This document shows, one piece after another, positions 1-35,445 of a stretch of DNA of 36,565 bases (position 1 is the stretch's first letter; each line of letters begins with the position of its first letter). The notes under the pieces were generated by a model. The model did not search any database and was not told the origin of the DNA. It saw only the letters and a program-made list of their open reading frames with translations. A program made the position numbers and the translations under genes. The stretch is from a virus: IMG/VR virus record IMGVR_UViG_3300047200_000219, positions 1-36,565 of that record; one strand, 5' to 3'.

Positions 1-11
1 GATAACTACTT

Positions 12-1037
12 TCATTTTGGATGCATATATCCTGGAAATTCATTCCCTGCTTTCTTCTTCTGGTTAGCATCTAACTTGGTGGGTGGATGGCAATTAAATT
101 GATACCACATTCCTTCTTTGGGTTCTGCCATTCTAATACAATCGTGGCAGGCTTGTATATTATCCGGATCTCCATGATACCAGTGTGAACGGATCTCTGC
201 TAATCTATATGAGTGCCACGCTTCCTTTAGAGATACGCACCTGATATTACCTAACCCCCACGTTCCATCAACTCTCTTAAAGCAGGGTTTAATCTCTCCA
301 TCACTCTGAATTAACAGGGAAGTCATGGGATTAGGTGCGATTGCTAAGCAGTCTGTTCCGCAGGATTGTGGAGTGAGCATCCTATCTACGGTAACTCTCT
401 TTCCTTCTGGTACGTCCGGAATGAAACCATACGTAGGATATTCCTTCTCCTGAGTATATGGTTGCTTATACATGAGTTTTAACTGAGGAACCTTCTTAAA
501 ATAGGATTTCCCTAACTTATACATTGGTACCGCATATGCTTCTGCTGCACGTTCTGTTACCATTTGTAGCGATATGGACTTATTCTTTGGATCAGATTCG
601 AGGTATTCTATTGCATTACAGCAACTTAACTCCCTCTTACCTACATCTGAAGTCCATAGAACTGCTAGAATCATGCGAAGGTTCTCCATTCTGCGTAACC
701 TTTCTGCCTTCTCCCCTGTTAACGACAAGCAGTTGGTAGATAATCCTATTTCTGTATCACATGGTAATATCTCGAACAAATCAGGATGGTTAAGGGATTC
801 TCCGGTAACATGGAATGAGATATGGTCTGCGTGCATCTCCTTTGCTTCTCTAACCGCTTTCTTAGCGAGTTCCTTATCCATGTAGACTTTCTGTTCCTTC
901 GGACGGCGCACGATATCGCAATGGGTACATCCGGCATTACAGATACCAGATAACTCAATCTGAACGATAGGAATCTTATCTTTAGGTGGATACATGCCAA
1001 GTTTCTGCTTAATTGGTTTAACTATATTAGAGAACAT
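12..1037 (-). CDS. Radical SAM / SPASM-like protein
   Basis: 341 aa. The N-terminal half has the radical SAM cluster motif CNAGCTHC (C33, C37, C40), which holds a 4Fe-4S cluster and cleaves S-adenosylmethionine; VTGES at 78-82 sits where the GGEP-type motif is expected. The C-terminal third has further cysteines (C226, C230, C252, C267, C297, C300) around SDGEIKPCFK and LGNI, the layout of a SPASM or twitch auxiliary cluster domain. Such enzymes modify peptides, sugars or other small substrates; the substrate here is not evident. It diverges from a glycosyltransferase, so surface or glycan modification is possible (inference). The ATG start is supported by an upstream TATA element at leaderless spacing. 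The family call is firm, the role unknown. Confidence 0.88.
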   Translation of the reverse strand: MFSNIVKPIKQKLGMYPPKDKIPIVQIELSGICNAGCTHCDIVRRPKEQKVYMDKELAKKAVREAKEMHADHISFHVTGESLNHPDLFEILPCDTEIGLSTNCLSLTGEKAERLRRMENLRMILAVLWTSDVGKRELSCCNAIEYLESDPKNKSISLQMVTERAAEAYAVPMYKLGKSYFKKVPQLKLMYKQPYTQEKEYPTYGFIPDVPEGKRVTVDRMLTPQSCGTDCLAIAPNPMTSLLIQSDGEIKPCFKRVDGTWGLGNIRCVSLKEAWHSYRLAEIRSHWYHGDPDNIQACHDCIRMAEPKEGMWYQFNCHPPTKLDANQKKKAGNEFPGYMHPK

Positions 1038-1060
1038 TACCTATATATCACTTCAATAGA

Positions 1061-1069
1061 TTAATATAA
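1061..1069. promoter_or_regulatory. Shared bidirectional TATA element
   Basis: The near-palindromic TTAATATAA is centred 28-29 bases before the minus-strand ATG at 1037 and 26-27 bases before the plus-strand ATG at 1092. Both distances fit archaeal leaderless promoters, and the 54-base gap shows no ribosome site for either gene. One TATA element may serve both directions (inference from spacing). Confidence 0.5.
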
Positions 1070-1091
1070 TTTTGTATTCAATTTATACATA

Positions 1092-1691
1092 ATGTATCTA
1101 GGTACTCCGAGAAAAGAGGACGATGATCCGCTAGATGCTTACATAACCAAATTAGAGAGGATTACTAACAGTAGGAATAAAATAAGGCAGAAGTTCCTAG
1201 AGTCAGATGAAAGTATCCTCCTTATGTTGGATTCGGATATTGAGATGGCAAAGGGTATTTGGGAAGTTCCGGAAATGGGGGGGTGGGATATCCTCTATAA
1301 TTCCTATCTGGTGCATAATGGTAACGTCTGTACTAGTGGATTGGGATGTACACTAATCAAAAGAGAGGTTTTAGAGAAGATTAAATTCAGGTGTGGTATA
1401 TCAGGAGAGAAGAAATACGCCTTTATAGACGAATGCCTTTACTTTGAGTTAGATGCTATTAAGGCAGGATTCAGGGTAAAAGAAGGAGTATTCATAGAAA
1501 CTAATCACGCAGGAAGGATACTTAAACCAAGAGAGAGGACGAGAAAAGAGAAGATATCTTATGCTGTTAGGATATGTATGCACCCATTTGTAGATTGTTA
1601 CCCAATAATGATTATGTGGGGTACGCTAACCAACTTCGTTTACACCAAAGTTAACAAAAGTGTTAACCAAAGTGTAACAATGGGGGATTAA
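1092..1691 (+). CDS. GT-A (family 2-like) glycosyltransferase, short N-terminus
   Basis: 199 aa. LLMLDSDIE (about 43-51) is the DxD metal and nucleotide-sugar site of GT-A enzymes. The middle segment TSGLGCTLIKREVLEKI and the acidic DECLYFELDAIKAGFRV segment match the acceptor and catalytic-base region of family 2 enzymes. The usual first 60 or so residues (the first nucleotide-binding strands before the ARN motif) are absent: the protein starts just before SRNKIRQKF, and the frame upstream is closed by a stop at 1062. It is a natural minimal form or an N-terminal truncation. Its stop overlaps the end of the convergent minus-strand gene by four bases. The likely role is sugar transfer to virion or host surface (inference). 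Confidence 0.72.
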   Translation: MYLGTPRKEDDDPLDAYITKLERITNSRNKIRQKFLESDESILLMLDSDIEMAKGIWEVPEMGGWDILYNSYLVHNGNVCTSGLGCTLIKREVLEKIKFRCGISGEKKYAFIDECLYFELDAIKAGFRVKEGVFIETNHAGRILKPRERTRKEKISYAVRICMHPFVDCYPIMIMWGTLTNFVYTKVNKSVNQSVTMGD

Positions 1692-1840
1692 ACTCGTTTT
1701 AAGAGTTCTTTATAATACTCTTCCAAAGAATCTTCCAGGAACAGCATATGACGTATATCTGTGCGCATTCCCTCTGACATCTCGTTAATAGACTCAATAA
1801 GATGTCCGGTTGGCATGTTAGTAAGATCTACCGCAGTCAT
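1688..1840 (-). CDS. Small protein downstream of terminase
   Basis: 50 aa, starting MTAVDLTN. The start overlaps the terminase stop (TAATG), so it is probably translationally coupled to terL. It is acidic and helical, with a methionine-rich middle and no cysteine or membrane segment. No family recognised. Its end meets the glycosyltransferase gene tail to tail with a four-base overlap. Confidence 0.6.
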   Translation of the reverse strand: MTAVDLTNMPTGHLIESINEMSEGMRTDIRHMLFLEDSLEEYYKELLKRV

Positions 1841-3177
1841 TACAACACCATTCTTCTTCTGACTTTATAGGGTTTATTCTCCCAAAACTCTTCATCTTCG
1901 TATCCCTCCAGCACATCAGGTATATCATCGTAGTCAAATTCCCCTTCCTTTGGTTCGTCTGACTCCTTGAAGTCTCCAATCATCCCTATTGTCGTAGCAC
2001 CAGTACCCATTGCATAACAGCAGAGAGCAACTGATATAACTAAATCATCATGGAATCCCTCAGGTGCATTATACTGCACATGCCCGTTCTGAGTTACCTT
2101 GTAAGTGTATGCAGAGAGTTCCCGCTTAAGTTCCTCATCCATTGGTAAGATAATCTGTCGGTTCTCAATAGTTACAGCCAGGTTATTAATTAAAACAGGT
2201 TTCGTTGCTGCATTCATATGGTAGGGAGAAACAGGAACTCCCATCTTAATTAAATCCTCAGCAACAGGATCTCCTATTCCGGTAGAATCCAGATAGCATA
2301 CGGGTTTTCCATAGGACTCATTAACAATCTTAACCCGGTCCTTAATGTATTCCCAATTAGATTGGTTAAACCTCTCCATGTAGACTATCTTTCTAGACTC
2401 TGGATCTCCTACGGTTATTACCGTGAAGTCCTCGTGCCTGCCGAGATCCACCCCCATAACGTATATCCTACCGTCTTTGAACTGCTCGTAGGCATCCTCG
2501 CGGATACATACCTCGAAGTTACGGAATACAGCACCACCACCTTCGATGAACTGTGCAAGGATCTCCTGCTTGTAGACCATCTCCGGCATCTGAGAAGTCA
2601 TTTCGTCTAGTTCTTTTCTAGCAATGATAGGATTATCGTATGAAGTAAACTGGAAAGACTTGTAATCGTTCTGCGAATCGTCTAAACCTCTTAAAAAGAC
2701 TTCGTAGAACCAGTTCTTGCCTTTGGGAGTACTAATTAGAACAGCCCAAGAACCAGGAGAATCCGCGAGTGCAGGACGAATTGCTTCGTTCCATACTTCG
2801 GGCTTGAGCATTGCTGCTTCATCCAGCACACAACCTTGAAGTTTCTCCCCCCTTAGAGAGTCAGGAGAGTCTCCGGATTTCGCTGCGATTCTGGAATAGT
2901 TATCAAACTCGATATACTTCTCACCCTCCATTATTCGACAGGGAATATTCCAATCACGAATGATGAGTTTCAGCATTCTCCAGATGATGCTTGTTTGCGC
3001 GTATGTGGGAGAAACGAGATAGTAGACGGTTTTAGGTGCTGATAACGCAGATACGAGTACAATATAGGAGGATAACTGACTCTTACCGAACCTTCGCCCA
3101 CAGCAGAGTACTCTAAACCTATGCGTATCATAAAAGATCTCCTTCTGTTTAGGAAGCAGTTTGAGTTCTAGATCCAA
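1840..3177 (-). CDS. terL: Terminase large subunit (packaging ATPase/nuclease)
   Basis: 445 aa, the normal length for the family. The ATPase domain has Walker A GRRFGKS at 27-33, Walker B VLDE at 117-120 and the coupling motif STPKG at 149-153. The RNase H-like nuclease domain shows the metal-binding acids D244 (GVDLGRHEDF), D297 (YLDSTGIGD) and D377/D378 (FHDDLVISVALC). The protein drives viral DNA into the prohead and cuts the concatemer at the portal. It lies downstream of the probable small subunit and overlaps it by 29 bases. The acidic C-terminal tail (about 405-435) probably contacts portal or capsid. No portal gene lies beside it, which is unusual. Confidence 0.97.
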   Translation of the reverse strand: MDLELKLLPKQKEIFYDTHRFRVLCCGRRFGKSQLSSYIVLVSALSAPKTVYYLVSPTYAQTSIIWRMLKLIIRDWNIPCRIMEGEKYIEFDNYSRIAAKSGDSPDSLRGEKLQGCVLDEAAMLKPEVWNEAIRPALADSPGSWAVLISTPKGKNWFYEVFLRGLDDSQNDYKSFQFTSYDNPIIARKELDEMTSQMPEMVYKQEILAQFIEGGGAVFRNFEVCIREDAYEQFKDGRIYVMGVDLGRHEDFTVITVGDPESRKIVYMERFNQSNWEYIKDRVKIVNESYGKPVCYLDSTGIGDPVAEDLIKMGVPVSPYHMNAATKPVLINNLAVTIENRQIILPMDEELKRELSAYTYKVTQNGHVQYNAPEGFHDDLVISVALCCYAMGTGATTIGMIGDFKESDEPKEGEFDYDDIPDVLEGYEDEEFWENKPYKVRRRMVL

Positions 3178-3688
3178 CTCTACCTCCTGAGGACTTCCTT
3201 TGGCTTGCTTCTTTAATCATTTTAGTAGCAAATTCACTGAAAATGAGTGATTGCTCGTCTAATTCCGGATCACTTGCATTATTTATAATCATAATGGGTT
3301 CCTTGTGGACCGGGGGTTTGAAGTCACCCACGTTAATATTGAAAACTCCAGAATTCTTGGTAACATTCTTGCCTTCGTAGAGGTTTTTACTTACTTTCAT
3401 GAGTAATTCCAAATAAACCTGTAGATCTCTTGGTTCCTGGAAGTCTATTTTACCCGAATATTTATACAAAGTTGACAGAATCTCGTTTTTAAGTCCTTCT
3501 GCACCATACAAAAACAAGTGAAAGAACCTTTTCTTCTCTTCTATTGATAAATCCTGACAAACAGCGTGTGGAGCGTAGATCGTCATAGGACAAATACTAA
3601 AAAACGTGCAATTAGTAGTACACTTATCATGAGGTTGATTAAAAACTAACCATTTATCTTCTTCTATCGGAGAAAGCGCGTTATCCAT
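3149..3688 (-). CDS. Probable terminase small subunit
   Basis: 179 aa, immediately upstream of terL with a 29-base overlap, the position of the small subunit that recognises the packaging site. The N-terminus carries four cysteines (C23, C27, C33, C44) that could bind a metal; the middle (45-110) is helical and the C-terminus basic. No clear terminase motif is visible, so the call rests on position and size. A TATA element at 3714-3721 is centred 29 bases before the ATG, which supports leaderless transcription of a terS-terL operon. Confidence 0.55.
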   Translation of the reverse strand: MDNALSPIEEDKWLVFNQPHDKCTTNCTFFSICPMTIYAPHAVCQDLSIEEKKRFFHLFLYGAEGLKNEILSTLYKYSGKIDFQEPRDLQVYLELLMKVSKNLYEGKNVTKNSGVFNINVGDFKPPVHKEPIMIINNASDPELDEQSLIFSEFATKMIKEASQRKSSGGRVGSRTQTAS

Positions 3689-7227: not shown

Positions 7228-7409
7228 CGTGGAATAGAGAACCCTGCGAGGACTGTGCAGTAGGAAAGAGAAGTGGATCTTTACCCTGCCACTGGAGAGT
7301 AGATATAGATCTCCTCACACTAGGCGTTAACTCCCCTCGGGTGAGATTAGTATCCTGCCCCCATTATAAAATACCCAATGAACCCTCATACCTAATAGAG
7401 TGGATGTAA
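7224..7409 (+). CDS. Cysteine-motif protein, paralogue of gene 14668
   Basis: 61 aa: PCEDC, LPCHWRVDIDLLTLG, SCPHYK and a final LIEWM. The same order (PCFDC, LPCRWKTEVEILTLA, ECPHQK, LIEWI) is in the gene at 14668. Four cysteines and a histidine probably bind a metal. ATGA overlap with the preceding gene. Confidence 0.65.
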   Translation: MTWNREPCEDCAVGKRSGSLPCHWRVDIDLLTLGVNSPRVRLVSCPHYKIPNEPSYLIEWM

Positions 7410-9218: not shown

Positions 9219-9504
9219 AAGTGATCTTAAAACCTTTTTAGATGCTTATGAGAAGTTATGGAAATCTACAGATTACGAGACATGCGATGAATTAAACGAG
9301 TTATTATCTGTTGACTCTCATTCTATTGAGAAGATCATTAAGCAAATATCAGATAGTGACCGATGCGCTTATTGTGGCAGATTATTAGATAATCCGGACG
9401 ATTATATAGAGGGTACTGAGTACGAAACTGATCCAAGTCCTGCACACTATCATTATAATAAAGGGTATATTTGCCCGGAATGCGGTAATAGGGAGATGTT
9501 TTAA
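9208..9504 (+). CDS. Zinc-ribbon protein
   Basis: 98 aa from the ATG at 9208, with GAGGAGG about 9 bases upstream. The N-terminal 50 residues are helical; the C-terminus has CAYCG at 52-56 and CPECG near the end, with an HYHY stretch between, a typical zinc ribbon. Overlaps the previous gene by 11 bases. Confidence 0.62.
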   Translation: MTLESDLKTFLDAYEKLWKSTDYETCDELNELLSVDSHSIEKIIKQISDSDRCAYCGRLLDNPDDYIEGTEYETDPSPAHYHYNKGYICPECGNREMF

Positions 9505-9505
9505 A

Positions 9506-9652
9506 ATGAGATGTATTTATGAAAATGGTGGTTATTGTGGGATATGTAATAAACCTATATTTAACCCAAAAAATGATAATGAACAACTAGAATCGGTAGA
9601 ATGTGATAAGTTATGTGATGAATATATAGAATGGGATGAATGGGAGATCTAA
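9506..9652 (+). CDS. Cysteine-rich acidic mini-protein
   Basis: 48 aa, with CGIC at 11-14 and CDKLC at 33-37 forming a probable metal site, and an acidic tryptophan-containing end (YIEWDEWEI). It starts one base after the previous stop and overlaps the next start (TAATG). Confidence 0.5.
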   Translation: MRCIYENGGYCGICNKPIFNPKNDNEQLESVECDKLCDEYIEWDEWEI

Positions 9653-9810
9653 TGACTAAATCTTTTATTCCGGCACTAATAGAAATTAAGGAATCAGACG
9701 GTTCATTTAAATTAAACCTAAAAGAGTTTCCAACATTATTGGAACTACTTTTCGGGTTCTCCTGCTTAATGTGTCTCTGGTCTTTCATTACTACCGGGAA
9801 ATTCTATTAA
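9652..9810 (+). CDS. Small tail-anchored membrane protein
   Basis: 52 aa: a soluble N-terminal 25 residues, then a hydrophobic helix (LLELLFGFSCLMCLWSFI). TAATG overlap with the preceding gene. A T8 tract lies just downstream (9813-9820). Function unknown. Confidence 0.48.
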   Translation: MTKSFIPALIEIKESDGSFKLNLKEFPTLLELLFGFSCLMCLWSFITTGKFY

Positions 9811-9820
9811 CTCTTTTTTT

Positions 9821-10042
9821 ATGAAACGTGTTAAAGGTATATCTGGCACCGGGAATTATAAGCCCAGGTGGTTATGGGATAAAGTAGCACTAAAGTATGA
9901 TCACGGCCTAGAACAAAATGATACAATTGTCTATAAATTTACTAGGCCTAGTATAGACAAAACGATAATCTGCTCTAATGATATTACAATATGCTGTGTT
10001 GATTGTATGAAATGCTATTCTGATTTATTAGAACAATATTAG
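9821..10042 (+). CDS. Hypothetical protein with C-terminal cysteine cluster
   Basis: 73 aa, starting MKRVKGISGTGNYKPRWLWD. Cysteines at the end (ICSNDITICCVDCMKC) probably bind a metal. It directly follows a T8 tract with no ribosome site, so translation is leaderless or weakly coupled. Last gene before a 380-base intergenic region. Confidence 0.5.
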   Translation: MKRVKGISGTGNYKPRWLWDKVALKYDHGLEQNDTIVYKFTRPSIDKTIICSNDITICCVDCMKCYSDLLEQY

Positions 10043-10054
10043 ACCGTTATAGAA

Positions 10055-10084
10055 CAACATATAGACATGATCGGTAATATGTTG
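10055..10084. repeat. Inverted repeat after gene 9821
   Basis: CAACATAT at 10055-10062 pairs with ATATGTTG at 10077-10084 across 14 bases. It lies 12 bases after the stop codon and could be a terminator hairpin or a protein site. No T tract follows at once. Confidence 0.4.
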
Positions 10085-10160
10085 GTATAATCCATTGTCT
10101 TTTATTATTTTTCGTTTGTTTGTTCCGCGTGGCAGTAATACATTACAATGGACAACTATG

Positions 10161-10280
10161 TACATTGGCGTATAGATTTATACATTAGCGTATAATTATG
10201 TTCATTAATGTATAAAAGTGTGCATCGGTGAACAAAAATATACATTGGTGTATAAAAAAGGACATCGGAGTTCTCGGAGG
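10161..10280. repeat. Six-unit 20-bp palindromic repeat array
   Basis: Six units begin at 10161, 10181, 10201, 10221, 10241 and 10261, exactly 20 bp apart. The consensus start is TACATTGGTGTATAAAAATA. With the preceding TA, the best unit reads TATACA-TTGG-TGTATA, a perfect 6+6 palindrome with a 4-base spacer. Units 3, 4 and 6 are diverged but in phase. The 20-bp step places sites on nearly the same DNA face every two turns, as in operator arrays or replication iterons. Confidence 0.8.
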
Positions 10281-10393
10281 GTCGCTGGCGGGCGCAGGAG
10301 CGCAGGGGGTTCCTAGGCACTTCCCTCTTTTTGGGTGATCCCTCTTTTCCCTCTCTTCCCTGTTTTTACAAAACATATATATCCCTCCCTTCC
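10274..10393. other. GC-rich patch and pyrimidine tracts
   Basis: From 10274 to about 10312 the sequence is G-rich (runs GGAGGG, GGCGGG, GGGGG) in an otherwise AT-rich region. From 10318 to 10393 the plus strand is almost all C and T with repeated TTCCCT blocks. No ORF is convincing. This is the flank of the repeat array and could be a melting or strand-asymmetric part of an origin (inference). Confidence 0.45.
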
Positions 10394-10403
10394 CTATATT
10401 TAG
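10394..10403 (+). promoter_or_regulatory. TATA element of gene 10425
   Basis: CTATATTTAG is centred about 27 bases before the ATG at 10425, giving leaderless transcription. A second element, CATATATATCC at 10374-10384, lies just upstream. Confidence 0.5.
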
Positions 10404-10424
10404 TATGCAGGGTGTTAGTGAAGG

Positions 10425-10631
10425 ATGAGCAATCCAACCTTCCCTGCTAATTGTACAAAGGAGTTGAAAAGAATGAAACCTAATTATTTGGATGTTGTAG
10501 ATTATATTGTGGAATGCCCGTTGTATAAATTTAATGTGGGTACAAACGAAATATGTTTTAAGTGTGAGTATTATTTGGGTTTATCTTATGAAAATGAGAG
10601 TATCGCATGTAAATATAAGGTGAAAAAATGA
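10425..10631 (+). CDS. Cysteine-containing hypothetical protein
   Basis: 68 aa, with C10, C31, C44-C47 (CFKC) and C62. ATG 10425 fits the TATA spacing; an in-frame ATG at 10473 with AAAGGAG 11 bases upstream is an alternative start. Stop overlaps the next gene by four bases. Function unknown. Confidence 0.55.
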   Translation: MSNPTFPANCTKELKRMKPNYLDVVDYIVECPLYKFNVGTNEICFKCEYYLGLSYENESIACKYKVKK

Positions 10632-10912
10632 AATACCTGAAATGTCCTCTGTGTGGTAAAACCCCTATGGATTATAGAACAACATCTGAACATACTGGAG
10701 CTTATCCCCAAGAGATATATAGGTGTATAAGTTGTAGTACCGTAGTTAAAACAAGTAAATTAAGAAAGGAAACTAAAGAAATTAAAAAACTAGAACGCTG
10801 TCCAGTTTGTGATGAATTAATGAACTTATTTATTGATGAACAATCCTTCATAGGAATTGTCTGCCCTAATCATGGGTACTATCATGGATGGAGGGTTGTT
10901 TTCTATGAGTAA
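10628..10912 (+). CDS. Double zinc-ribbon protein
   Basis: 94 aa with two ribbons: CPLCG at 6-10 with CISC at 33-36, then CPVC at 58-61 with CPNH at 79-82. The two are joined by a lysine-rich helix (KLRKETKEIKKLE). GGTGA lies before the ATG. Likely nucleic-acid or protein adaptor; role unknown. Confidence 0.68.
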   Translation: MKYLKCPLCGKTPMDYRTTSEHTGAYPQEIYRCISCSTVVKTSKLRKETKEIKKLERCPVCDELMNLFIDEQSFIGIVCPNHGYYHGWRVVFYE

Positions 10913-14319: not shown

Positions 14320-14671
14320 CGATCAGAGTAGGGGAAGAGAGAAAAAATTAGACCGCGTGGTTCCTAGATGTATCACGATATATCGGTCACAAGATGAGGC
14401 TTTGAAGGCAGCGAATATTAATTTATCTGGTAAAATCCAGTGGTTTTTGGACACTTTTGTCCTACCAACAGAGATTAATGAGAAGTTCATGCCGAACGCT
14501 GAGAGGATCTTCATCTCAGAAACAGAAGGCATTAAGGATTATCTACGTAAATTCGGTGAGGAAAAGACAATAGCGTATGTAAGGAAGATTATCGATGATA
14601 AGATGGGTATCCCTGTAACAATGAAACAGGCAGAGAACTTCTGGATTAAGTGGAAGCATCTGGTAGCATGA
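14312..14671 (+). CDS. Probable ribbon-helix-helix-type DNA-binding protein
   Basis: 119 aa. The segment from about residue 17 to 51 (RCITIYRSQDEALKAANINL, then SGKIQWFLDTFV) has the strand-helix-helix layout of RHH proteins with the common INLS turn between helices. The C-terminal 65 residues are helical and charged. AAAGGAG lies upstream. Likely a transcription regulator; weaker match than the 13067 gene. Confidence 0.5.
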   Translation: MNNDQSRGREKKLDRVVPRCITIYRSQDEALKAANINLSGKIQWFLDTFVLPTEINEKFMPNAERIFISETEGIKDYLRKFGEEKTIAYVRKIIDDKMGIPVTMKQAENFWIKWKHLVA

Positions 14672-14844
14672 GTTACACATCTCCCTGCTTCGATTGTAAA
14701 ACCCACTTACAATCCCTTCCCTGTAGGTGGAAAACAGAAGTAGAGATCCTTACACTTGCTGCTGACATGCCTACCTTTATGGTAATCGAATGCCCCCACC
14801 AGAAGATGATCAACGATCCTGCTAAACTTATAGAGTGGATATGA
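14668..14844 (+). CDS. Cysteine-motif protein, paralogue of gene 7224
   Basis: 58 aa from the ATG at 14668 (ATGA overlap with the previous gene). PCFDC, SLPCRWKTEVEILTLA, ECPHQK and LIEWI match the 7224 gene in order and spacing. Metal binding by four cysteines and a histidine is likely; function unknown. Confidence 0.62.
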   Translation: MSYTSPCFDCKTHLQSLPCRWKTEVEILTLAADMPTFMVIECPHQKMINDPAKLIEWI

Positions 14845-15878
14845 AAACCATACTCTTCTTTGGATTGATTCGTCCTTACAAGGGATTAGAATTACTTATA
14901 GAAGCAGTTAGAGATCTAGACGTTAAGTTACTAGTAGTTGGAGAGGTATGGGAAGATGATACAATTATTGAGAAACTCACTAATAACCCTAAAATTGAAT
15001 TTATTCGTGGTTATGTTGATGATATTAGAATCCCTGCTTATTTTAACCGTGCTGATGTATTGGTACTTCCCTACCTGAGAGCATCATCATCCGGAGTTGC
15101 GCATATAGGTATGTCATTTGGATTACCTATTGTTTATACTGATGTAGGAGGATTAAGGGAGTCTATGCGTGGATATGAGGGTGGAATATGTGTAAAGGAT
15201 CCAAAGCGGTTGAGAATGGTTATAAGAACCGCATTAATCCTGTCTGAATATGCTCCCTTCCCTATTCCAAAAGGCATGACATTCAAAGAACTTGCTAATG
15301 AATGGGATGTCGTTAACCCTACTATCATAGGGCCATCTCATAGGTTTGAATCAGGTATCTCGCATTACACTGTATCACTTTCTAACTCTTTACGGGATCC
15401 TAATGTCATACTTTTCAGAAACATGCTCCCTAAATTCCTATTCCCTGGAAAAGATAGAGTAGGTAATGCACATACAACACATATATTTACAGGGTGTTGG
15501 ATTGAGTTACTAGACTGGTACAATCCCTTTACTTGGATTCGTGCAGGAGGATACCTTAATCACGATGTAATCCTTGAATGGTGGACTTCATCCGTCGCTC
15601 ACATGTACCTCTTCATCATGCTATTCTATAGAAGAAACTACATTATAGAGATGCACGAAACAATAGATCCTATGGAGCACTCTAACATCTTACTACGCAC
15701 GTATAGCAGGATAATGGGAGCACTTATCAGAAGGTTAGCATCTTCATATGTCGTTCACTCTAATGCTGATAAAGTTGCTATAAACTTGTATTATAACATC
15801 CCACCAGATAAGATTAAAGTAATTCCACATGGCATTTACGATTACCATAAAAAGAATATTATAATAGAAGGAGAATAG
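14841..15878 (+). CDS. GT-B glycosyltransferase with reversed domain order
   Basis: 345 aa from the ATG at 14841 (ATGA overlap). Residues 1-130 are what is normally the C-terminal, donor-sugar domain of a family 4 enzyme: ILFFGLIRPYKGLELLIEAV, LLVVGEVWED, then ADVLVLPY and SSSGVAHIGMSFGLPIVYTD with VGGLRES. Residues 159-345 are what is normally the N-terminal, acceptor domain: TIIGPSHRFESGISHYTVSL opens it, NPFTWIRAGGYLNHDVILEWW and a membrane-facing helix follow, and it ends ADKVAINLYYNIPPDKIKVI plus PHGIYD, the usual interdomain linker. The breakpoint is at the domain linker, as for a circular permutation. Membrane-associated sugar transfer is likely; substrate unknown. Confidence 0.85.
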   Translation: MKTILFFGLIRPYKGLELLIEAVRDLDVKLLVVGEVWEDDTIIEKLTNNPKIEFIRGYVDDIRIPAYFNRADVLVLPYLRASSSGVAHIGMSFGLPIVYTDVGGLRESMRGYEGGICVKDPKRLRMVIRTALILSEYAPFPIPKGMTFKELANEWDVVNPTIIGPSHRFESGISHYTVSLSNSLRDPNVILFRNMLPKFLFPGKDRVGNAHTTHIFTGCWIELLDWYNPFTWIRAGGYLNHDVILEWWTSSVAHMYLFIMLFYRRNYIIEMHETIDPMEHSNILLRTYSRIMGALIRRLASSYVVHSNADKVAINLYYNIPPDKIKVIPHGIYDYHKKNIIIEGE

Positions 15879-28635: not shown

Positions 28636-29895
28636 TTACACTCCGAATATATTTGCATTCCTTTCTGAAGATGAAAGTTCTGCCACCTGCTCAGGGATGA
28701 TAGCGATAATGCCACCCTTCTGAATAGTTTCAGTCTCCATCTTCTCAATTCGTGCCTTAATTAGTGTTAGTTCATCATTGATTGCCTTCGTAAAGGTATC
28801 CATCTGTGCTTTAGTAATAATATCAGCAACAGGTTCCTCTAAGAGTGCCTTCTCAACAACCTCTTCAACAGGGGTTGCTTTCTGAACCTCTTCCTTATCT
28901 TCCATTTCGTCCTCCTTATCTTCGGATTTCTCTAAATCCTTCTCTTCTTCCTCGCCTTTTTCTACAGGCATAGGTTCTCTCTTACCATCGGTATCCTCTG
29001 ATGTTGCTTTTGAGGCATGTACCTGCGCATCAGATTCTACCAGTTTAGCAAGGATCTCTTCTACCCCCTTTAATCTCTTCTCGATTTCCGAGGGGTTTCG
29101 CTCATCCGATTTCAGTACCTCTTCTGTTCCAGAGGGTGCTTCCTGATTCTCCGTATAGTGTTCAACGCCATCCCCTTTTTCAAGGGAACACTTTTGAACA
29201 TCTTCATCTTCCATAGTATCCTTCCTCCTACCTCCTTTTGTTCCGTCAGTAGTCGTATGAATCAGTGTAGATTCTGTAGTATCTGCCTTTATTAATATAT
29301 CCTCATTTTTATAATAATCTGAGAATGCCTTAACTACGTCTAAGAAGGTATGCTCGTTTACTTCATGGGTGCCCACTTGCTTGCCTACTGCTGAAATGCT
29401 CCATAAATCAAGGGCATCTGTGCGACAAGGAGACATTCTTTGCTCAGGTCTAAGCTTACACTCGGGCGAACTAATCTTACGCTTCCCATAGATTGAGAAT
29501 GCGTTCAGTTTACCCGTCTTTATCTCTTCCCATGCATCAGCGTTATCCGGTGTATCGTAGACGTTCGCCTTAACGAATAACGCTTTACCCTTAATCACGC
29601 ATTCAGTAAAGGTACCTATAGGTCGCTCAGTATGCTGATAGTGGAGTATAGGATGCTTCATGAAGTTAGTAAGGGATTCTTTAATCGCCTTTATTGCTAT
29701 TACTTCATTCTCGCGGTCTACGTCCTCGAAGTGAGCGCATCCGGATATTTGATAATCGGAATCTACAGAAAAGTCTATACTAAAAGAGATGGGTTGTTCC
29801 CCTTTCTTAATCAAGTGGGGGGATGGTGAATCCTCCGCTAGATTCGGAGTTAATGCGGTATTCTTTATCTGGTGCTCGTTGTGTTTCTCCTGCAT
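28636..29895 (-). CDS. Prohead protease fused to a scaffold-like domain
   Basis: About 419 aa from ATG 29895. The first half is a caudovirus prohead protease: ISGCAHFEDVDRENEVI, then HPILHYQHTERPIGTF with the catalytic histidine, and LNAFSIYGK with the catalytic serine (S78-type His-Ser protease). From about residue 230 on it is E/K/D-rich coiled coil, typical of internal scaffolds removed during maturation. Start is uncertain: ATG 29970 and 29895 overlap the upstream gene deeply and lack ribosome sites, while TTG 29814 overlaps it by only 8 bases and would begin MIKKGEQPISFSIDF, a natural protease N-terminus. The domain call is firm. Confidence 0.85.
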   Translation of the reverse strand: MQEKHNEHQIKNTALTPNLAEDSPSPHLIKKGEQPISFSIDFSVDSDYQISGCAHFEDVDRENEVIAIKAIKESLTNFMKHPILHYQHTERPIGTFTECVIKGKALFVKANVYDTPDNADAWEEIKTGKLNAFSIYGKRKISSPECKLRPEQRMSPCRTDALDLWSISAVGKQVGTHEVNEHTFLDVVKAFSDYYKNEDILIKADTTESTLIHTTTDGTKGGRRKDTMEDEDVQKCSLEKGDGVEHYTENQEAPSGTEEVLKSDERNPSEIEKRLKGVEEILAKLVESDAQVHASKATSEDTDGKREPMPVEKGEEEEKDLEKSEDKEDEMEDKEEVQKATPVEEVVEKALLEEPVADIITKAQMDTFTKAINDELTLIKARIEKMETETIQKGGIIAIIPEQVAELSSSERNANIFGV

Positions 29896-30301
29896 AGTAC
29901 CACTTCGCGGGTTCAAAGCAACCTTCCCATGTGAGGGGGAAATGACTATTGGGATTCGCCGCGCATACAACTGCCCACATAAACCAACCTATTCGGGAGC
30001 GCGCCCATCCATTCGTTGCGTAGAGTACTACCAATATCCTCAGAAGATTTATAAATGACTTTGCGTATTTTTCCTCCTTATCGAACTTCTTCGCCCATTC
30101 CATATTCTGAAAGAGCAGGGTTAAGTTGGGATCATCGTAGAGTCTTTTCATAAGTTCCGGATCATTCCCATCTGAGAAGTAAGCATCTCCAAGTGCTTTG
30201 AATACAGGATGCTCTATCTCTACGTTCTCGAACTGCAGGAGGAATTCAAGGTTCTTATCCAGAATAGGATTATAGTTCTCTTCTGTCAACTTCTCGTTCA
30301 A
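29807..30301 (-). CDS. Hypothetical protein of the head module
   Basis: 164 aa, starting MNEKLTEENYNPILDKNLEF, helical, tryptophan-rich in the middle (NGWARSRIGWFMWAVVCAAN). It overlaps the gene upstream by 4 bases and the protease frame downstream. No family recognised; neither it nor the 30298 gene resembles a portal protein. Confidence 0.55.
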   Translation of the reverse strand: MNEKLTEENYNPILDKNLEFLLQFENVEIEHPVFKALGDAYFSDGNDPELMKRLYDDPNLTLLFQNMEWAKKFDKEEKYAKSFINLLRILVVLYATNGWARSRIGWFMWAVVCAANPNSHFPLTWEGCFEPAKWYYAGETQRAPDKEYRINSESSGGFTIPPLD

Positions 30302-30945
30302 TCTGTCCTCCCGCTTACAAGATGCGTAATCTGTCCTTTACCCTTTGGATACCACCTGTCAGGATGAAACTCCGGATCCATTTGCCATTCTTCCTTGTGT
30401 ACGTGGAGATACTCCATAATCCAATCTACAGACATCCTGACGAATTCCTTCTCCTGGTAGAGTTCTATGAGAGTCACCCATGCGGAGTTAATCCATTTCT
30501 TAGAGTATCCGCGAATATCGTTCTGGTTCCACCAATCGTAGTAGAATTCCAACGCTTTAACGTGATCCTTCTTCCAGAGTTCCTCATTAGCAATGAAGAT
30601 ACAGACATGCCCTCCGATACGTTCGTAGTAAGCGGAATCCTGTTTATAGAGAGATAGTAAGAACTTACCGGATTGGTTAAGAGCAATACGTTCCTTCATT
30701 GAGAGTTTCTTTTCGTAGTGCTTGTGACTCTTACGGAACTTCTCAAACTCTTTGTTCATCTCTAATAGGAAAGCGTAGTTAGGTTTATCGGGATCTCCTT
30801 TATCTACCCTCCAGAACTTAATATCAATAGAGAGCGCGGCTAGATCACTAAGAGTAAGTTTCTCCTTCTCTAAAGCGTTACGTGCAATACTCTTCTGTTG
30901 GTTATGAAATTCCCATCCATCGGGGTTATGAGGTCTATTGCTCAC
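30298..30945 (-). CDS. Hypothetical protein
   Basis: 215 aa, starting MSNRPHNPDGWEFHNQQKSI, almost all helical and rich in W, Y and K (ALEFYYDWWNQNDIRGYSKK, EEWQMDPEFHPDRWYPKGKG). No family recognised. It is the first of a coupled pair before the protease. Confidence 0.58.
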   Translation of the reverse strand: MSNRPHNPDGWEFHNQQKSIARNALEKEKLTLSDLAALSIDIKFWRVDKGDPDKPNYAFLLEMNKEFEKFRKSHKHYEKKLSMKERIALNQSGKFLLSLYKQDSAYYERIGGHVCIFIANEELWKKDHVKALEFYYDWWNQNDIRGYSKKWINSAWVTLIELYQEKEFVRMSVDWIMEYLHVHKEEWQMDPEFHPDRWYPKGKGQITHLVSGRTD

Positions 30946-30966
30946 CTGAATCTTTATCTACTCCTG

Positions 30967-31290
30967 TTATATCTTATTCTCGTCTACTTTATGATCCCCG
31001 CACCAATCATCCAAGTATACTACAGGATATCCATTCATTGCAGGGGAATGTCTACGACACCTTCCAATCGGAGAATTACTTCCTTCTCCTCTTACCTTAT
31101 CAACAAAGAACATACAGGTTTTACATCTCATTCCACTTGAACGGTGTTTCCATGGATCCCCTGTTGTAATGCCCGTTGTTCCTCCGGTTGCGGTTACTGT
31201 AAAAGTAGACCAATTATTCATAGCGGCGTATGGATTACTACTACACCTAGAACATGCTGATGTTCCTGCCAATGCACAATTACAAATCAT
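30967..31290 (-). CDS. Small metal-binding protein (CKTC...GRCRRH...DDWCG family)
   Basis: 107 aa from the ATG at 31290; an in-frame start at 31353 would enter the upstream gene. An N-terminal cysteine group (CNCALAGTSACSRC) is followed by MRCKTCMFFV, IGRCRRHSPAMNGYPVVYLD and DWCGDHK. The second half is a small family common in phages and prophages (pattern CxxCxF...GxCRRxxP...DDWCGxx, recall), probably binding zinc or Fe-S. Role unknown. Confidence 0.68.
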   Translation of the reverse strand: MICNCALAGTSACSRCSSNPYAAMNNWSTFTVTATGGTTGITTGDPWKHRSSGMRCKTCMFFVDKVRGEGSNSPIGRCRRHSPAMNGYPVVYLDDWCGDHKVDENKI

Positions 31291-31300
31291 AAAAGGGGAT

Positions 31301-31546
31301 TTATTTGGTTGCTTCTTTAGCAAGGATATCTTTGTACATCTGGTAGACGGCATCCCATACTGCCTGTGCCTCTTCCTCAGTAATCTTATCGTCCTTCATT
31401 GCTTCGTTCATTTTAGACATGACATTAGTAAACGAATTGAAGAGAGTCTTAAAGCGTTTATACCTGTTATCCCCTACGATGTATCCCATTGCAATACCCA
31501 CGAGGAGTACTACGATGCTAATAATAGTTTCAATTGGAACTTCCAT
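31301..31546 (-). CDS. Small membrane protein, holin-like layout
   Basis: 81 aa. One hydrophobic helix (TIISIVVLLVGIAMGYIVGD) near the N-terminus, then an amphipathic charged tail with EEEAQAVWDAVYQMYKDI. The layout resembles some small holin-type proteins, and it lies near the peptidase gene, but there is no decisive motif. An AT-rich promoter lies upstream. Confidence 0.55.
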   Translation of the reverse strand: MEVPIETIISIVVLLVGIAMGYIVGDNRYKRFKTLFNSFTNVMSKMNEAMKDDKITEEEAQAVWDAVYQMYKDILAKEATK

Positions 31547-31581
31547 TATAATGCCTCTTATATAATAAGGAGATTATACTT

Positions 31582-31595
31582 CTATATATTTAAAG
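31582..31595 (-). promoter_or_regulatory. TATA element of gene 31301-31546
   Basis: Minus strand GCTTTAAATATATA; the predicted start is near 31561, leaving AAGAGG in a short leader before the ATG at 31546. Confidence 0.48.
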
Positions 31596-31607
31596 CATTT
31601 GCAGAAG

Positions 31608-31676
31608 AGTGGTTAATATGGGAGAGGAAAAAACCACTAAACCTCTCCCTTATCTGTGTTAGAGTTTGCGAACTCT
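31608..31676 (-). terminator. Hairpin cluster after the peptidase gene
   Basis: AGAGTT-TGCG-AACTCT (31661-31676) is a tight 6-bp hairpin. GGGAGAGG (31620-31627) pairs with CCTCTCCC (31642-31649), and AGTGGTT (31608-31614) pairs with AACCACT (31632-31638), competing with or knotting into the second hairpin. They lie in the 219-base gap between two minus-strand genes, so termination is the simplest role; an RNA element is possible. Confidence 0.5.
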
Positions 31677-31765
31677 CATGTGTGGCGACAATGAACTTAT
31701 AGAGATGTTGTTTAGCAAGCGGATGTGATACGCCTGCATACATATTACTTGTATTGCTGTATATA

Positions 31766-33145
31766 TCAACCTTTCTGTATGATATGGAATCTCTTCATTA
31801 GCTCCTTAATCTTCTGCGCGATGTATTCTGAGATCGATTGTTCTTGAAATGTAAACGCATATGTGCTAACCCCCTCCTCTACCGTAATCATCTGTAGAAC
31901 ACTGGTAGGTTCTCTTATTCTGAACTTATTCATTACAGTGCAGGATATCTGATAAGTATCTCCCACATGAAGCATTACCTTAACTACCTTAGTATTTGTA
32001 TACACATCGGTGTTTACAGAAATTGTAGACAGCATGTTGCTACTAATCGTTATAAGTTTATGATTGTCGGGATCAGGAGTTGGGGGGATAATAACATCCG
32101 TCAGGGAGTCGTGAGTTACAACTGGTACGAATGCCTGCCCATCTGCGTAGTTAAAGTAATTCCTGGAGAATCCACTTAACTTACTCCATGTATTCCCCCA
32201 TGACATAATAACGTAAACTACATCTAATTCATCATCATACCCACACGCGCATAGAGCATGTCCACCTATACATTCCCCTCTAGGTTCCGGTAGTAATCCC
32301 TTAGCACCACCTGAGGTATAATTCTCGTAGATGTTTACAGCTGTCATTACAGCACCATAGGTATAGATAGCATCCTTTAATCCATCCCATGTGTACACCT
32401 GAAGATAGTTATCTGCTCTATGTGCTGCTGCCTGATTAGCTAATGCTGAAATGGTTTCGTCTTTGTTGTTGTTTATTAGCGGATAATACATAGGAGCGCA
32501 GAATGAAGTATGAGCAGTCTGGCGATCCTTCTCGTAGTTGTACCCGTAGGTTTTGTACGCCTGACAGACGTTATCTATATATCCACCTTCTGGTACCGTA
32601 ACGTTACCTATTCTGCGCCCTTCATCGTATAATCCCTCTGCTGATGGAGTGAACTTAGGCAGGATATCAACGCGCATAACGCACTGATCGAATACATTAA
32701 CAGGTTGATCTCGAAGGATCTCTTCTATATCTTTAGAAGTAAGCGGAGTAGGATTTATAAGTCTTAACTGGTTAAACCAAGCGGTATAAGCACCCGAGAA
32801 TCCAGTGCAGGTACCTCTTCCATCCTGGTTTAGAAGTGGAATCAAATCAAAGAAAGGATTCATGTATTTCTTATGGCGGGATACCAGTTCTACCCGTTCA
32901 AAACGTGCGAATTTATCTTTAGGAGTGGGTTTAAGAGGTTTATCCAGTTTCCTCTTTAACTTGTAGATGTAGTGGTTATCCTCTATGTTCTTGGAGATCC
33001 AGTTCTCCTTAACCATAGTATCCAGTTCGCAGGCGATATCCTTCTTGGAGTCTGAAAGAACTGCTGAAATCTCGTCAAGGGTAACTTCATCCTTTTTAAT
33101 GGATTTAATAGTAGAGAAGATCCTTGCTCGTAACTCTTTTGACAT
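31766..33145 (-). CDS. Papain-like (C1A) peptidase with N-terminal winged-helix domain
   Basis: 459 aa. Residues 1-68 look like a winged helix (VTLDEISAVLSDSKKDIACE, then NHYIYKLKRKL). The peptidase domain has LLNQDGRGTCTGFSGAY with the catalytic C113 and ECIGGHALCACGYDDE with H296. The next block reads VIMSWGNTW, where papains have NSWG, so the usual asparagine is M314. The last 100 residues are beta-rich (TISSNMLSTISVNTD). Such enzymes could open the archaeal S-layer or process virion proteins (inference). Transcribed from a leaderless promoter. Confidence 0.78.
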   Translation of the reverse strand: MSKELRARIFSTIKSIKKDEVTLDEISAVLSDSKKDIACELDTMVKENWISKNIEDNHYIYKLKRKLDKPLKPTPKDKFARFERVELVSRHKKYMNPFFDLIPLLNQDGRGTCTGFSGAYTAWFNQLRLINPTPLTSKDIEEILRDQPVNVFDQCVMRVDILPKFTPSAEGLYDEGRRIGNVTVPEGGYIDNVCQAYKTYGYNYEKDRQTAHTSFCAPMYYPLINNNKDETISALANQAAAHRADNYLQVYTWDGLKDAIYTYGAVMTAVNIYENYTSGGAKGLLPEPRGECIGGHALCACGYDDELDVVYVIMSWGNTWSKLSGFSRNYFNYADGQAFVPVVTHDSLTDVIIPPTPDPDNHKLITISSNMLSTISVNTDVYTNTKVVKVMLHVGDTYQISCTVMNKFRIREPTSVLQMITVEEGVSTYAFTFQEQSISEYIAQKIKELMKRFHIIQKG

Positions 33146-33164
33146 GCGTAAGAATTAACAGATT

Positions 33165-33175
33165 AGATATAAAAA
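33165..33175 (-). promoter_or_regulatory. TATA element of the peptidase gene
   Basis: Minus strand TTTTTATATCT, centred 25 bases before the ATG at 33145 with no ribosome site between: leaderless. Confidence 0.58.
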
Positions 33176-33186
33176 GAAGAGTAAGT

Positions 33187-33429
33187 TTAGAGATCTTCAG
33201 TAAGTTTAAATTCCGCTTCTCCATCTGCATTAGCAATTGCCATGTTAGTAACAAGTCGCTCGATTTCAGGTTGAGATCCCTTAGTTATAAGCGTAACTTT
33301 GCCAATGGTAGTTTCTGCAACCAGATCGAATCCATTATCATAGTTGCTCTTAATCTCGAAATATCCATCAAATGGGATCCACGCTGGATACGTGGAATCC
33401 CCTGCCTTTCCCTCGTAACGAATGATCAT
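33187..33429 (-). CDS. Hypothetical beta-rich protein
   Basis: 80 aa from the ATG at 33429 (a longer start at 33477 lies above the promoter). MIIRYEGKAGDSTYPAWIPF, then alternating strands and an acidic end. TATA spacing supports this start. No family recognised. Confidence 0.58.
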   Translation of the reverse strand: MIIRYEGKAGDSTYPAWIPFDGYFEIKSNYDNGFDLVAETTIGKVTLITKGSQPEIERLVTNMAIANADGEAEFKLTEDL

Positions 33430-33434
33430 AGTTA

Positions 33435-33551
33435 TTATTTTGTGGGATAAGGATATAAAAGTGTTGCTATTCCACACCAGATTAAAACAGGTAGCATAAT
33501 AATTAAAGTAACACCAATAAGGAAGTAATAGGGGATTTCATCAACTGTCAT
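33435..33551 (-). CDS. Single-span membrane mini-protein
   Basis: 38 aa: MTVDEIPYYF, then LIGVTLIIMLPVLIWCGIAT, one membrane helix, and a short LYPYPTK tail. Overlaps the gene upstream by 11 bases. Its DNA contains the TATA box of the next gene. Could be a holin-type or virion membrane protein; unknown. Confidence 0.48.
   Translation of the reverse strand: MTVDEIPYYFLIGVTLIIMLPVLIWCGIATLLYPYPTK
33451..33460 (-). promoter_or_regulatory. TATA element of gene 33187-33429
   Basis: Minus strand TTTTATATCC, centred 27 bases before the ATG at 33429, inside the preceding mini-gene. Confidence 0.55.
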
Positions 33552-33663
33552 TATCATGCTCGTTTATTATATCGGGTTTAACACCGTGTTCACGTTCAAG
33601 TGTTATCCTAATCATTCTAAGTTCGTTAAGAATATCCTGTAATAAAAGGTAAATATCATCCAT
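33541..33663 (-). CDS. Small helical protein
   Basis: 40 aa: MDDIYLLLQDILNELRMIRI, then TLEREHG and an acidic tail. It starts directly after the PKD gene's stop codon and overlaps the membrane mini-protein. Amphipathic helix by eye; function unknown. Confidence 0.48.
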   Translation of the reverse strand: MDDIYLLLQDILNELRMIRITLEREHGVKPDIINEHDNDS

Positions 33664-34710
33664 CTAGTATACCCTTACCTGAGTTGTATTACCTGAGCAT
33701 CCATTAGAATTACAGACGTATTGAACTACACTCCAGAATCCGCGCTTAACGTATTTATAAGTAACGTTCTGTGTGGTGATATTAGCAGAACCATCCCCCA
33801 TGCTCCAGTTCCATGTAGTAGGAGTTCCGGTTGATGTATCAGTAAATAAAGTCCATCCTGGAATAATTGTAAAGGTTTTATTAGCTGTGAAATTCGCTGT
33901 CGGTGGTGCAGTTGTAAGGTACCTTATAATAACAACACCGGCTATTCCGTTTGTTGGGGGATACGTGCCATCACCACTATATCCTCCGTAACCACCAGAA
34001 CCATAACTACTGTTTAATGCTGGGGACCACGCACCATCTCCCCCCTTTGCCACATATAATGGTAATCCGATTATTGTTGATACAGTTCCGTTTCCACCTT
34101 TATCATTATCCCCGTTTGCACCAGCGGATGATGCGCCGCCACCACCACCACTATGGTATGCGCTTCCTCCCGCATTTGCCCCTGTATATCCCTGTCCTGC
34201 CGTTGGAGTACCTGCGTTGCCACCGGTTGACCCAACTAGTTTTCCACCACCACCGCTTGAACCGCCGCTTGCTCCATCGGCGCTATACCCAGAGTAACCA
34301 ACCCCCCCGGCACCACCTCCAATTGCGGTAAGGTTTGAGAATGTAGAATTAGCTCCGTTTGTCCCTCTTGTTGACGAACCGGGGGTTGCTGCTCCATGAT
34401 CTCCAACTGTAATGTTAAGTATTCCAACAAACCCGTTTGCCGTTCCGTTAAGTAACCCACCTGCACCACCGCCCCCGCCCTCATATTGCGCTCCTACCCC
34501 GGTTGAACCGCCCGGTCCACCGCCAGCAACAACAAGATACTGTATTGAATTGATACCATTAGGAACCGTCCAGGTAGTACTACCAGTTCCATTAAAAATA
34601 ATTACCGTATATGCACCATCTGTTGTATTCGTCTGCGTAACCGTAGCACTCGCTACCCCGCACAGCATCATCAATACTAAAAATAAGATTAAACCCTTGT
34701 AACTCCCCAT
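33664..34710 (-). CDS. Secreted or virion glycine-rich PKD protein
   Basis: 348 aa from the ATG at 34710 (34719 possible). A signal peptide is clear: a short basic start, then GLILFLVLMMLCGVASA with a likely cut after ASA. The middle (60-260) is a glycine-rich repeat region, as in GGGGGAGG and SSGGGGK blocks. The last 80 residues are a PKD domain (PTANFTANKTFTIIPGWTLF, then WNWSMGDGSANITTQNVTYK). Many N-x-S/T sequons are present. PKD and glycine-rich domains are common in archaeal surface and adhesion proteins. A secretion signal on a virion-module protein is unusual. Confidence 0.75.
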   Translation of the reverse strand: MGSYKGLILFLVLMMLCGVASATVTQTNTTDGAYTVIIFNGTGSTTWTVPNGINSIQYLVVAGGGPGGSTGVGAQYEGGGGGAGGLLNGTANGFVGILNITVGDHGAATPGSSTRGTNGANSTFSNLTAIGGGAGGVGYSGYSADGASGGSSGGGGKLVGSTGGNAGTPTAGQGYTGANAGGSAYHSGGGGGASSAGANGDNDKGGNGTVSTIIGLPLYVAKGGDGAWSPALNSSYGSGGYGGYSGDGTYPPTNGIAGVVIIRYLTTAPPTANFTANKTFTIIPGWTLFTDTSTGTPTTWNWSMGDGSANITTQNVTYKYVKRGFWSVVQYVCNSNGCSGNTTQVRVY

Positions 34711-35174
34711 TGCACCCACACTCCTGTAAGATTAACCAACGCTGCGATTGTATCTGAGGTTGCTATTCGAGTTGCTCTTACTATGCATGTGGTTTGTCGA
34801 GTTCCACCGGGAGTAAGAGATGCAGTCTGAGTACCTTGCTGTGAAGTTGCTGTAGTACTAAGCGTAGTAATAGATCCTACTGTAGCACCCCATGTAATTC
34901 CATCCCACGTACCATCAAACATAAAGGAAGCATTACCCGCAGAAGAAGGATTGGTAAATATAGGAGTTATCTTAAACGCAGTTGTGTTAAGATCGTCTAA
35001 TCCAATATGCCACTTGGTATAAGTCACAGCAGTTGATGCGAATTGTGCGTAAACAAAGTCGTTTGCATCCTGGTTCCATGTTGCCGGAGAGGTTGTAGGG
35101 ACCATCCCGTCCTTAACCGGATAGAACCTTGAAGCGGTTGTAATCGCAGTCTGTATCTTATACCGTGTTACCAT
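34689..35174 (-). CDS. Virion surface protein (hypothetical)
   Basis: 161 aa, starting MVTRYKIQTAITTASRFYPV. Beta-rich and T/A-rich, ending LTGVWVQWGVTRV. Its end overlaps the PKD gene start by 22 bases. Probably structural from its composition and neighbours; no family recognised. Confidence 0.52.
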   Translation of the reverse strand: MVTRYKIQTAITTASRFYPVKDGMVPTTSPATWNQDANDFVYAQFASTAVTYTKWHIGLDDLNTTAFKITPIFTNPSSAGNASFMFDGTWDGITWGATVGSITTLSTTATSQQGTQTASLTPGGTRQTTCIVRATRIATSDTIAALVNLTGVWVQWGVTRV

Positions 35175-35179
35175 GATAG

Positions 35180-35437
35180 TTACCCTTTAATATCTTTGAT
35201 ATCTTCTTCTGCCTTAGGTTTAATCCCTAATTTATCGCATTCAGCAATAAGATCGGCAACTTCCTTTAACTCTGCTTCTCTTTGAGCGGTATATACCTCC
35301 AAGTCATGAGTAATTGCCTTCTGCTGAGATAGGAGGAAATTATAATCGTAGGTGAACTTCGCTCCTATAATGTGAACGTCTTTAGTAACTTCAATCTTAT
35401 TATCGTCTACTTTCTTTACTGATGTAAAATCTGCCAT
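35180..35437 (-). CDS. Coiled-coil hypothetical protein
   Basis: 85 aa, starting MADFTSVKKVDDNKIEVTKD, with a charged helix (AQREAELKEVADLIAECDKL). GGAGGAAAC lies upstream of the ATG. It may be a fibre chaperone or attachment protein because it directly follows the fibre gene (inference). Confidence 0.52.
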   Translation of the reverse strand: MADFTSVKKVDDNKIEVTKDVHIIGAKFTYDYNFLLSQQKAITHDLEVYTAQREAELKEVADLIAECDKLGIKPKAEEDIKDIKG

Positions 35438-35445
35438 GTTTCCTC

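Follow-up and report, generated by a model that had tools for sequence, protein, structure and literature searches.

A circularly permuted GT4-type glycosyltransferase on a metagenomic virus contig

A glycosyltransferase gene in mid-contig

The material analyzed here is one whole IMG/VR virus record, IMGVR_UViG_3300047200_000219 (36,565 nt, referred to as the window). It carries a gene for a glycosyltransferase of the GT-B fold, one of the two main folds among glycosyltransferases, and the locus comprises the following features:

14650..14844, plus strand: small upstream ORF of 64 aa, from its sequence a possible zinc ribbon, whose stop overlaps the glycosyltransferase start (ATGA)
14841..15878, plus strand: permuted GT4/GT-B glycosyltransferase gene, 345 aa from ATG 14841, with the frame open from GTG 14835
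14847..15308, plus strand: donor-binding Rossmann domain, ordinarily C-terminal (family model 213-376; Pfam PF13692 and PF00534), with the C-terminal helix MTFKELANEWD
15309..15320, plus strand: new junction of ~4 residues from the old C-terminus to the old N-terminus, as placed by the family profile
15321..15854, plus strand: acceptor Rossmann domain, ordinarily N-terminal (family model 10-196; Pfam PF13439), ending in the old interdomain linker IKVIPHGIYDYHKK

The glycosyltransferase ORF is single and unbroken, lies in mid-contig, and reads through without a frame break. Because ATG 14841 forms an ATGA overlap with the stop of the upstream ORF, it is the likelier start compared to GTG 14835, and viral residue numbers are counted from it throughout; the donor domain's first strand follows it by two residues. 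The same overlap suggests coupled translation of the 64-aa ORF and the glycosyltransferase. A Pfam search of the 64-aa ORF returned no match. Separately, a 50-nt repeat (70% identical) occurs at 7356-7405 and 14791-14840, the second copy lying at the 3' end of the 64-aa ORF directly before the glycosyltransferase start, which perhaps points to small genes that are paralogous or to a hot spot of insertion.

Donor and acceptor domains in swapped order

Ordinary GT4 enzymes carry the acceptor domain before the donor domain, a rule that is broken in the viral protein, where the order is reversed through one circular cut. In Pfam searches, Glyco_trans_1_4 covers residues 4-127 (E 1e-18) and Glycos_transf_1 matches with E 1e-15, both above the gathering cut-off, while Glyco_transf_4 follows at residues 174-334 (E 1e-6; 29.2 bits for a cut-off of 28.5, and 31.3 bits for the domain alone). 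The Pfam domain order of cellular homologues is the opposite one. A family profile built from 57 full-length archaeal homologues, each in the ordinary order, matches the viral protein twice, with model positions 213-376 aligned to residues 3-156 (149.9 bits) and model positions 10-196 to residues 161-338 (224.5 bits). Once the viral protein is rotated in silico, the profile yields one single-domain match from model position 10 to 372 with 381.7 bits. Given these two profile matches in swapped order and the one continuous match after rotation, the domain swap is far beyond chance.

The profile also shows how exact the swap is. The only model parts absent from the viral protein are the two ends (1-9 and 377-387) and the interdomain linker (197-212), and deletions are present in the viral donor domain. 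The new termini fall within the former interdomain linker. The old ends are thus joined and the new ends lie inside the former chain, with no overlap or duplication, i.e., the protein is a circular permutant of the ordinary arrangement. At the level of sequence, this permuted order is confirmed, and it is known from one contig.

The initial annotation, made from the DNA letters, had described a relative of family 4 enzymes in donor-first order, cut at the PDKIxVIPHG linker and rejoined through residues 130-158. Its family assignment agrees with Pfam, the family profile, and the tree described below; the swapped order was borne out by the Pfam order and the two swapped profile matches; and the profile places the new termini in the interdomain linker, as proposed. 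The rejoining segment has to be revised: the donor domain keeps its C-terminal helix and thereby extends as far as residue 156, and with the acceptor domain beginning at residue 161 the actual joint is only ~4 residues long. In the GT-B fold, the final helix reaches across to the N-terminal (acceptor) domain, and because the viral donor domain keeps this helix, such a short joint is physically reasonable.

Other readings of the gene were tried and rejected. An ordinary-order glycosyltransferase with misread domains is excluded by the rotated-profile test, a read-through of two genes by the single ORF and the complete domains, and a contig-end artefact by the mid-contig position.

Relatives of the viral protein

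The best cellular match is a glycosyltransferase from a Methanomicrobiales genome (L089), with 55% identity in the acceptor (N) domain and 47% in the donor (C) domain. A homologue is present in 37 of the 232 Methanomicrobiales genomes, always as a single copy, and matches were obtained in 60 of 393 sampled genomes of the archaeal phylum that includes Methanomicrobiales. The ordinary order was seen in all genome-collection ORFs having both domains (76/76) and in all full-length archaeal ORFs (53/53, some genomes being sampled twice). Normal-order homologues, which the initial annotation had proposed to look for together with permuted relatives, are thus present in the likely host lineage, while permuted relatives were found neither in this lineage nor in IMG/VR.

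Among viruses, scans of IMG/VR proteins with the whole protein, a mixed alignment, the N-domain, and the C-domain recovered no glycosyltransferase relative, and a scan for the junction DNA pattern recovered no second permuted gene. Likewise, no glycosyltransferase was found in 37 terminase- or capsid-related virus records, including the two used for comparison below (L002 and L003). Three phage records gave a match to the donor half only, and the one that was fetched (L088) has an ordinary-order homologue.

With the permuted gene found in a single metagenomic record only, an assembly or chimera artefact has to be considered, and we judge it very improbable. The ORF is continuous and in frame across a junction located exactly at the domain ends, a placement that a random chimera would not give. 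The two halves have equal G+C (0.377 and 0.376) and are about equally far from the host genes, and none of the host genomes examined holds a permuted copy or a sequence identical to the viral gene that could have been mixed in.

Origin of the two halves

Phylogenies were obtained for each domain and for the de-permuted concatenation. In the N-domain tree, the virus clusters with a single clade of methanogens (support 98/99), and the concatenated tree places it in this same clade (82/92). The C-domain, too divergent to be placed firmly by itself, leaves the virus on a long branch; the clade of the N-domain is not rejected (AU p 0.25), and the C-domain tree by itself does not show that both halves derive from one gene. 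Taken together, the profile match over both domains and the tree position indicate that the viral protein belongs to the aglB-linked GT4 subfamily of Methanomicrobiales. Since the N-domain and concatenated trees give one clade that the C-domain data do not reject, one ancestral gene would be the simplest origin of both halves.

Alternatively, two half-genes from two different GT4 genes may have been fused end-to-start with loss of the outer halves, in which case no single gene was permuted. The long C-domain branch, not firmly placed with the N-domain clade, would be compatible with such a fusion, as would the fact that glycosylation loci carry several tandem GT4 genes, e.g., the extra GT4-like ORF in L208 described below. 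However, both halves fall in one narrow subfamily and score highly with one full-length profile, whereas a half drawn from another GT4 gene would be expected to score much lower, and the same-clade origin is not rejected and agrees with the concatenated tree. We therefore regard a two-gene fusion as unlikely.

Conserved residues and predicted structure

The viral protein keeps most near-invariant residues of the family, 36/39 in the N domain and 29/32 in the C domain, while at other sites it matches the majority residue at 68/155 and 42/125 positions, respectively (Fisher p about 1e-8 in each domain). The motifs kept include RPYKG as well as HE and WWTSS of the acceptor domain. This retention of strictly conserved residues argues for an active enzyme. 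The EX7E motif is absent from the viral donor domain, which reads ASSSGVAHIGM instead; since the host homologue also lacks it (SQSGVAHIGM), this absence says nothing on the permutation.

A dead or re-purposed remnant, i.e., fused domains that no longer transfer sugar, would fit the few invariant positions that are changed (L172E, Y177H, and F25V among them), the donor-domain deletions, the short linkers, and some low-confidence segments in the predicted structure. We nonetheless find it improbable, given an open frame in which near-invariant residues, including the motifs above, are kept far more often than other sites.

A structure prediction had also been proposed at the outset as a check. 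AlphaFold with an alignment of 42 domain fragments gave two alternating alpha/beta domains (pLDDT 77.7, pTM 0.54), compared to a pLDDT of 40 without the alignment, and pLDDT was low around the junction and at residues 161-173. This prediction recovers two Rossmann-type domains in swapped order and does not fix their mutual orientation, so that the domain arrangement in the model is uncertain. Foldseek matches in the PDB were to GT-B C-domains (e.g., those of glycogen synthase, MshA, and PimA), mostly over ~150-200 aligned residues and at ~3 A in the cleaner matches; as the search is sequential, a permuted chain should indeed align mostly over a single domain.

Link to aglB and proposed function

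The archaeal oligosaccharyltransferase is encoded by aglB, a homologue of which lies downstream of the cellular glycosyltransferase on the same strand in 12 of the 19 fetched host regions, and is confirmed by Pfam in L089. Because of this neighbor, the cellular homologue probably helps build the N-glycan. In another Methanomicrobiales region (L208), a second GT4-like ORF (9496-10632) stands between the homologue and aglB, and a similarly sized gap is seen in three further regions (L203, L206, and L209), an arrangement which suggests a conserved glycosylation cluster. The viral enzyme would most likely carry out this step, or a variant of it, on glycoproteins of the host surface or of the virion. 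The effects of N-glycosylation differ among archaeal viruses, and in Halorubrum the loss of aglB was without effect on one tailed virus (PMC10384203). Capsid decoration has been suggested for virus-encoded glycosyltransferases of other archaeal viruses (PMC10848311).

Overall, we consider it probable that the viral protein is a natural circular permutant of a GT-B enzyme, encoded by a GT4 gene captured from a methanogen N-glycosylation locus, still a two-domain GT-B, and acting on surface or virion glycans, where the cleft geometry, activity, substrate, host, and permutation route are the parts that we infer. Specifically, a methanogen akin to Methanomicrobiales would have supplied the virus with a GT4 gene of its N-glycosylation locus, the old C- and N-termini would have been joined by ~4 residues, and new ends would have been opened in the interdomain linker. 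The simplest route would be a tandem duplication, the textbook path to circular permutation, followed by the loss of the outer halves; this would fit the exact ends, with no intermediate seen. The old termini should be close, since the final GT-B helix reaches back to the N-terminal domain, and the joined protein could thus fold to the same two-domain cleft. The first domain would then bind the donor nucleotide sugar and the second a lipid-linked or protein-linked glycan acceptor, and the glycans placed by AglB on S-layer, pilus, or virion proteins would receive the sugar. With somewhat more reserve, we hold it rather likely that the protein is a catalytically active, naturally evolved GT4 permutant, generated within the virus lineage after an N-glycosylation gene had been captured from the host, and that it remodels methanogen surface glycans.

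Comparison with known systems

The aglB-adjacent GT4 of Methanomicrobiales (L089 2849-4015, CAIKOD010000032.1) shares its subfamily and conserved residues with the viral protein, but is cellular, in the ordinary order, and about 390 aa long, with a linker and extra ends that the viral protein lacks. Inverse order has been described for Alg13-Alg14 fusions in Entamoeba and Dictyostelium (Amoebozoa) and explained by a re-fusion of split subunits (PMC8993221). Like the viral protein, these fusions are N-glycosylation-linked GT-B enzymes with the catalytic/donor half ahead of the acceptor half; they are, however, of MurG/GT28 type and found in cellular eukaryotes, whereas the viral protein has GT4-type domains and gave no Pfam match of MurG/GT28 type (Glyco_tran_28_C, Alg14). 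His1 ORF31, a lipothrixvirus glycosyltransferase, and RfaG of an uncultured Caudovirales are virus-borne GT-B proteins with weak fold matches to the viral protein; among the GT4/GT1-type fold matches from archaeal viruses and phages, no permuted example was identified in a fold search that reports no domain order. The GT4 structures PimA and MshA resemble the viral donor domain in fold and sequence, but have the ordinary order and an EX7E motif, which is missing from the viral protein as well as from its close homologues in the hosts.

In open-access papers, we found no case of a circularly permuted GT-B enzyme besides the Alg13-Alg14 fusions. If true, the viral protein would, within the scope of this search, have no predecessor among permuted GT4 enzymes or among permuted GT-B enzymes of viruses. 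From a permutant whose four-residue joint is so exactly placed, one would learn that folding does not require the halves to come in a given order, and enzyme engineers would gain a natural template to start from. Such a permutant would also show a virus gene passing through permutation and would point to viral tampering with methanogen N-glycans, in a field, methanogen virus-host biology, of which to our knowledge little is known. Automatic annotation by domain presence alone hides such permuted cases.

The virus and its probable host

The large terminase gene has relatives in other records:

1840-3177, minus strand: TerL, related to that of IMG/VR records L002 and L003 (TerL 52%)

Capsid-region genes on the minus strand are likewise related to those of L002 and L003. 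All late genes lie on the minus strand, with TerS/TerL within 1-3688 and the capsid genes within 28636-36565, and appear contiguous across the record ends when compared to these two records in gene order, which suggests that the linear record was cut from a genome that is circular or circularly permuted, its late genes spanning the ends of the record. The virus is probably a tailed virus of methane-producing archaea, as judged from the origin of the glycosyltransferase gene and from distantly related TerL sequences found in that phylum of archaea. TerL searches gave one weak match only in Methanomicrobiales and more matches in the wider phylum, at 31-37% identity and not decisive for the host. 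Terminase relatives (35-37%) in genomes of this phylum (L279-L284) possibly mark proviruses related to this virus. Between the terminase and the record end, a radical SAM protein with a SPASM domain is encoded at 12-1037, which is unusual as a late-region virus gene. At 33664-34719, a glycine-rich protein with a PKD domain is encoded, probably a tail or adhesin protein.
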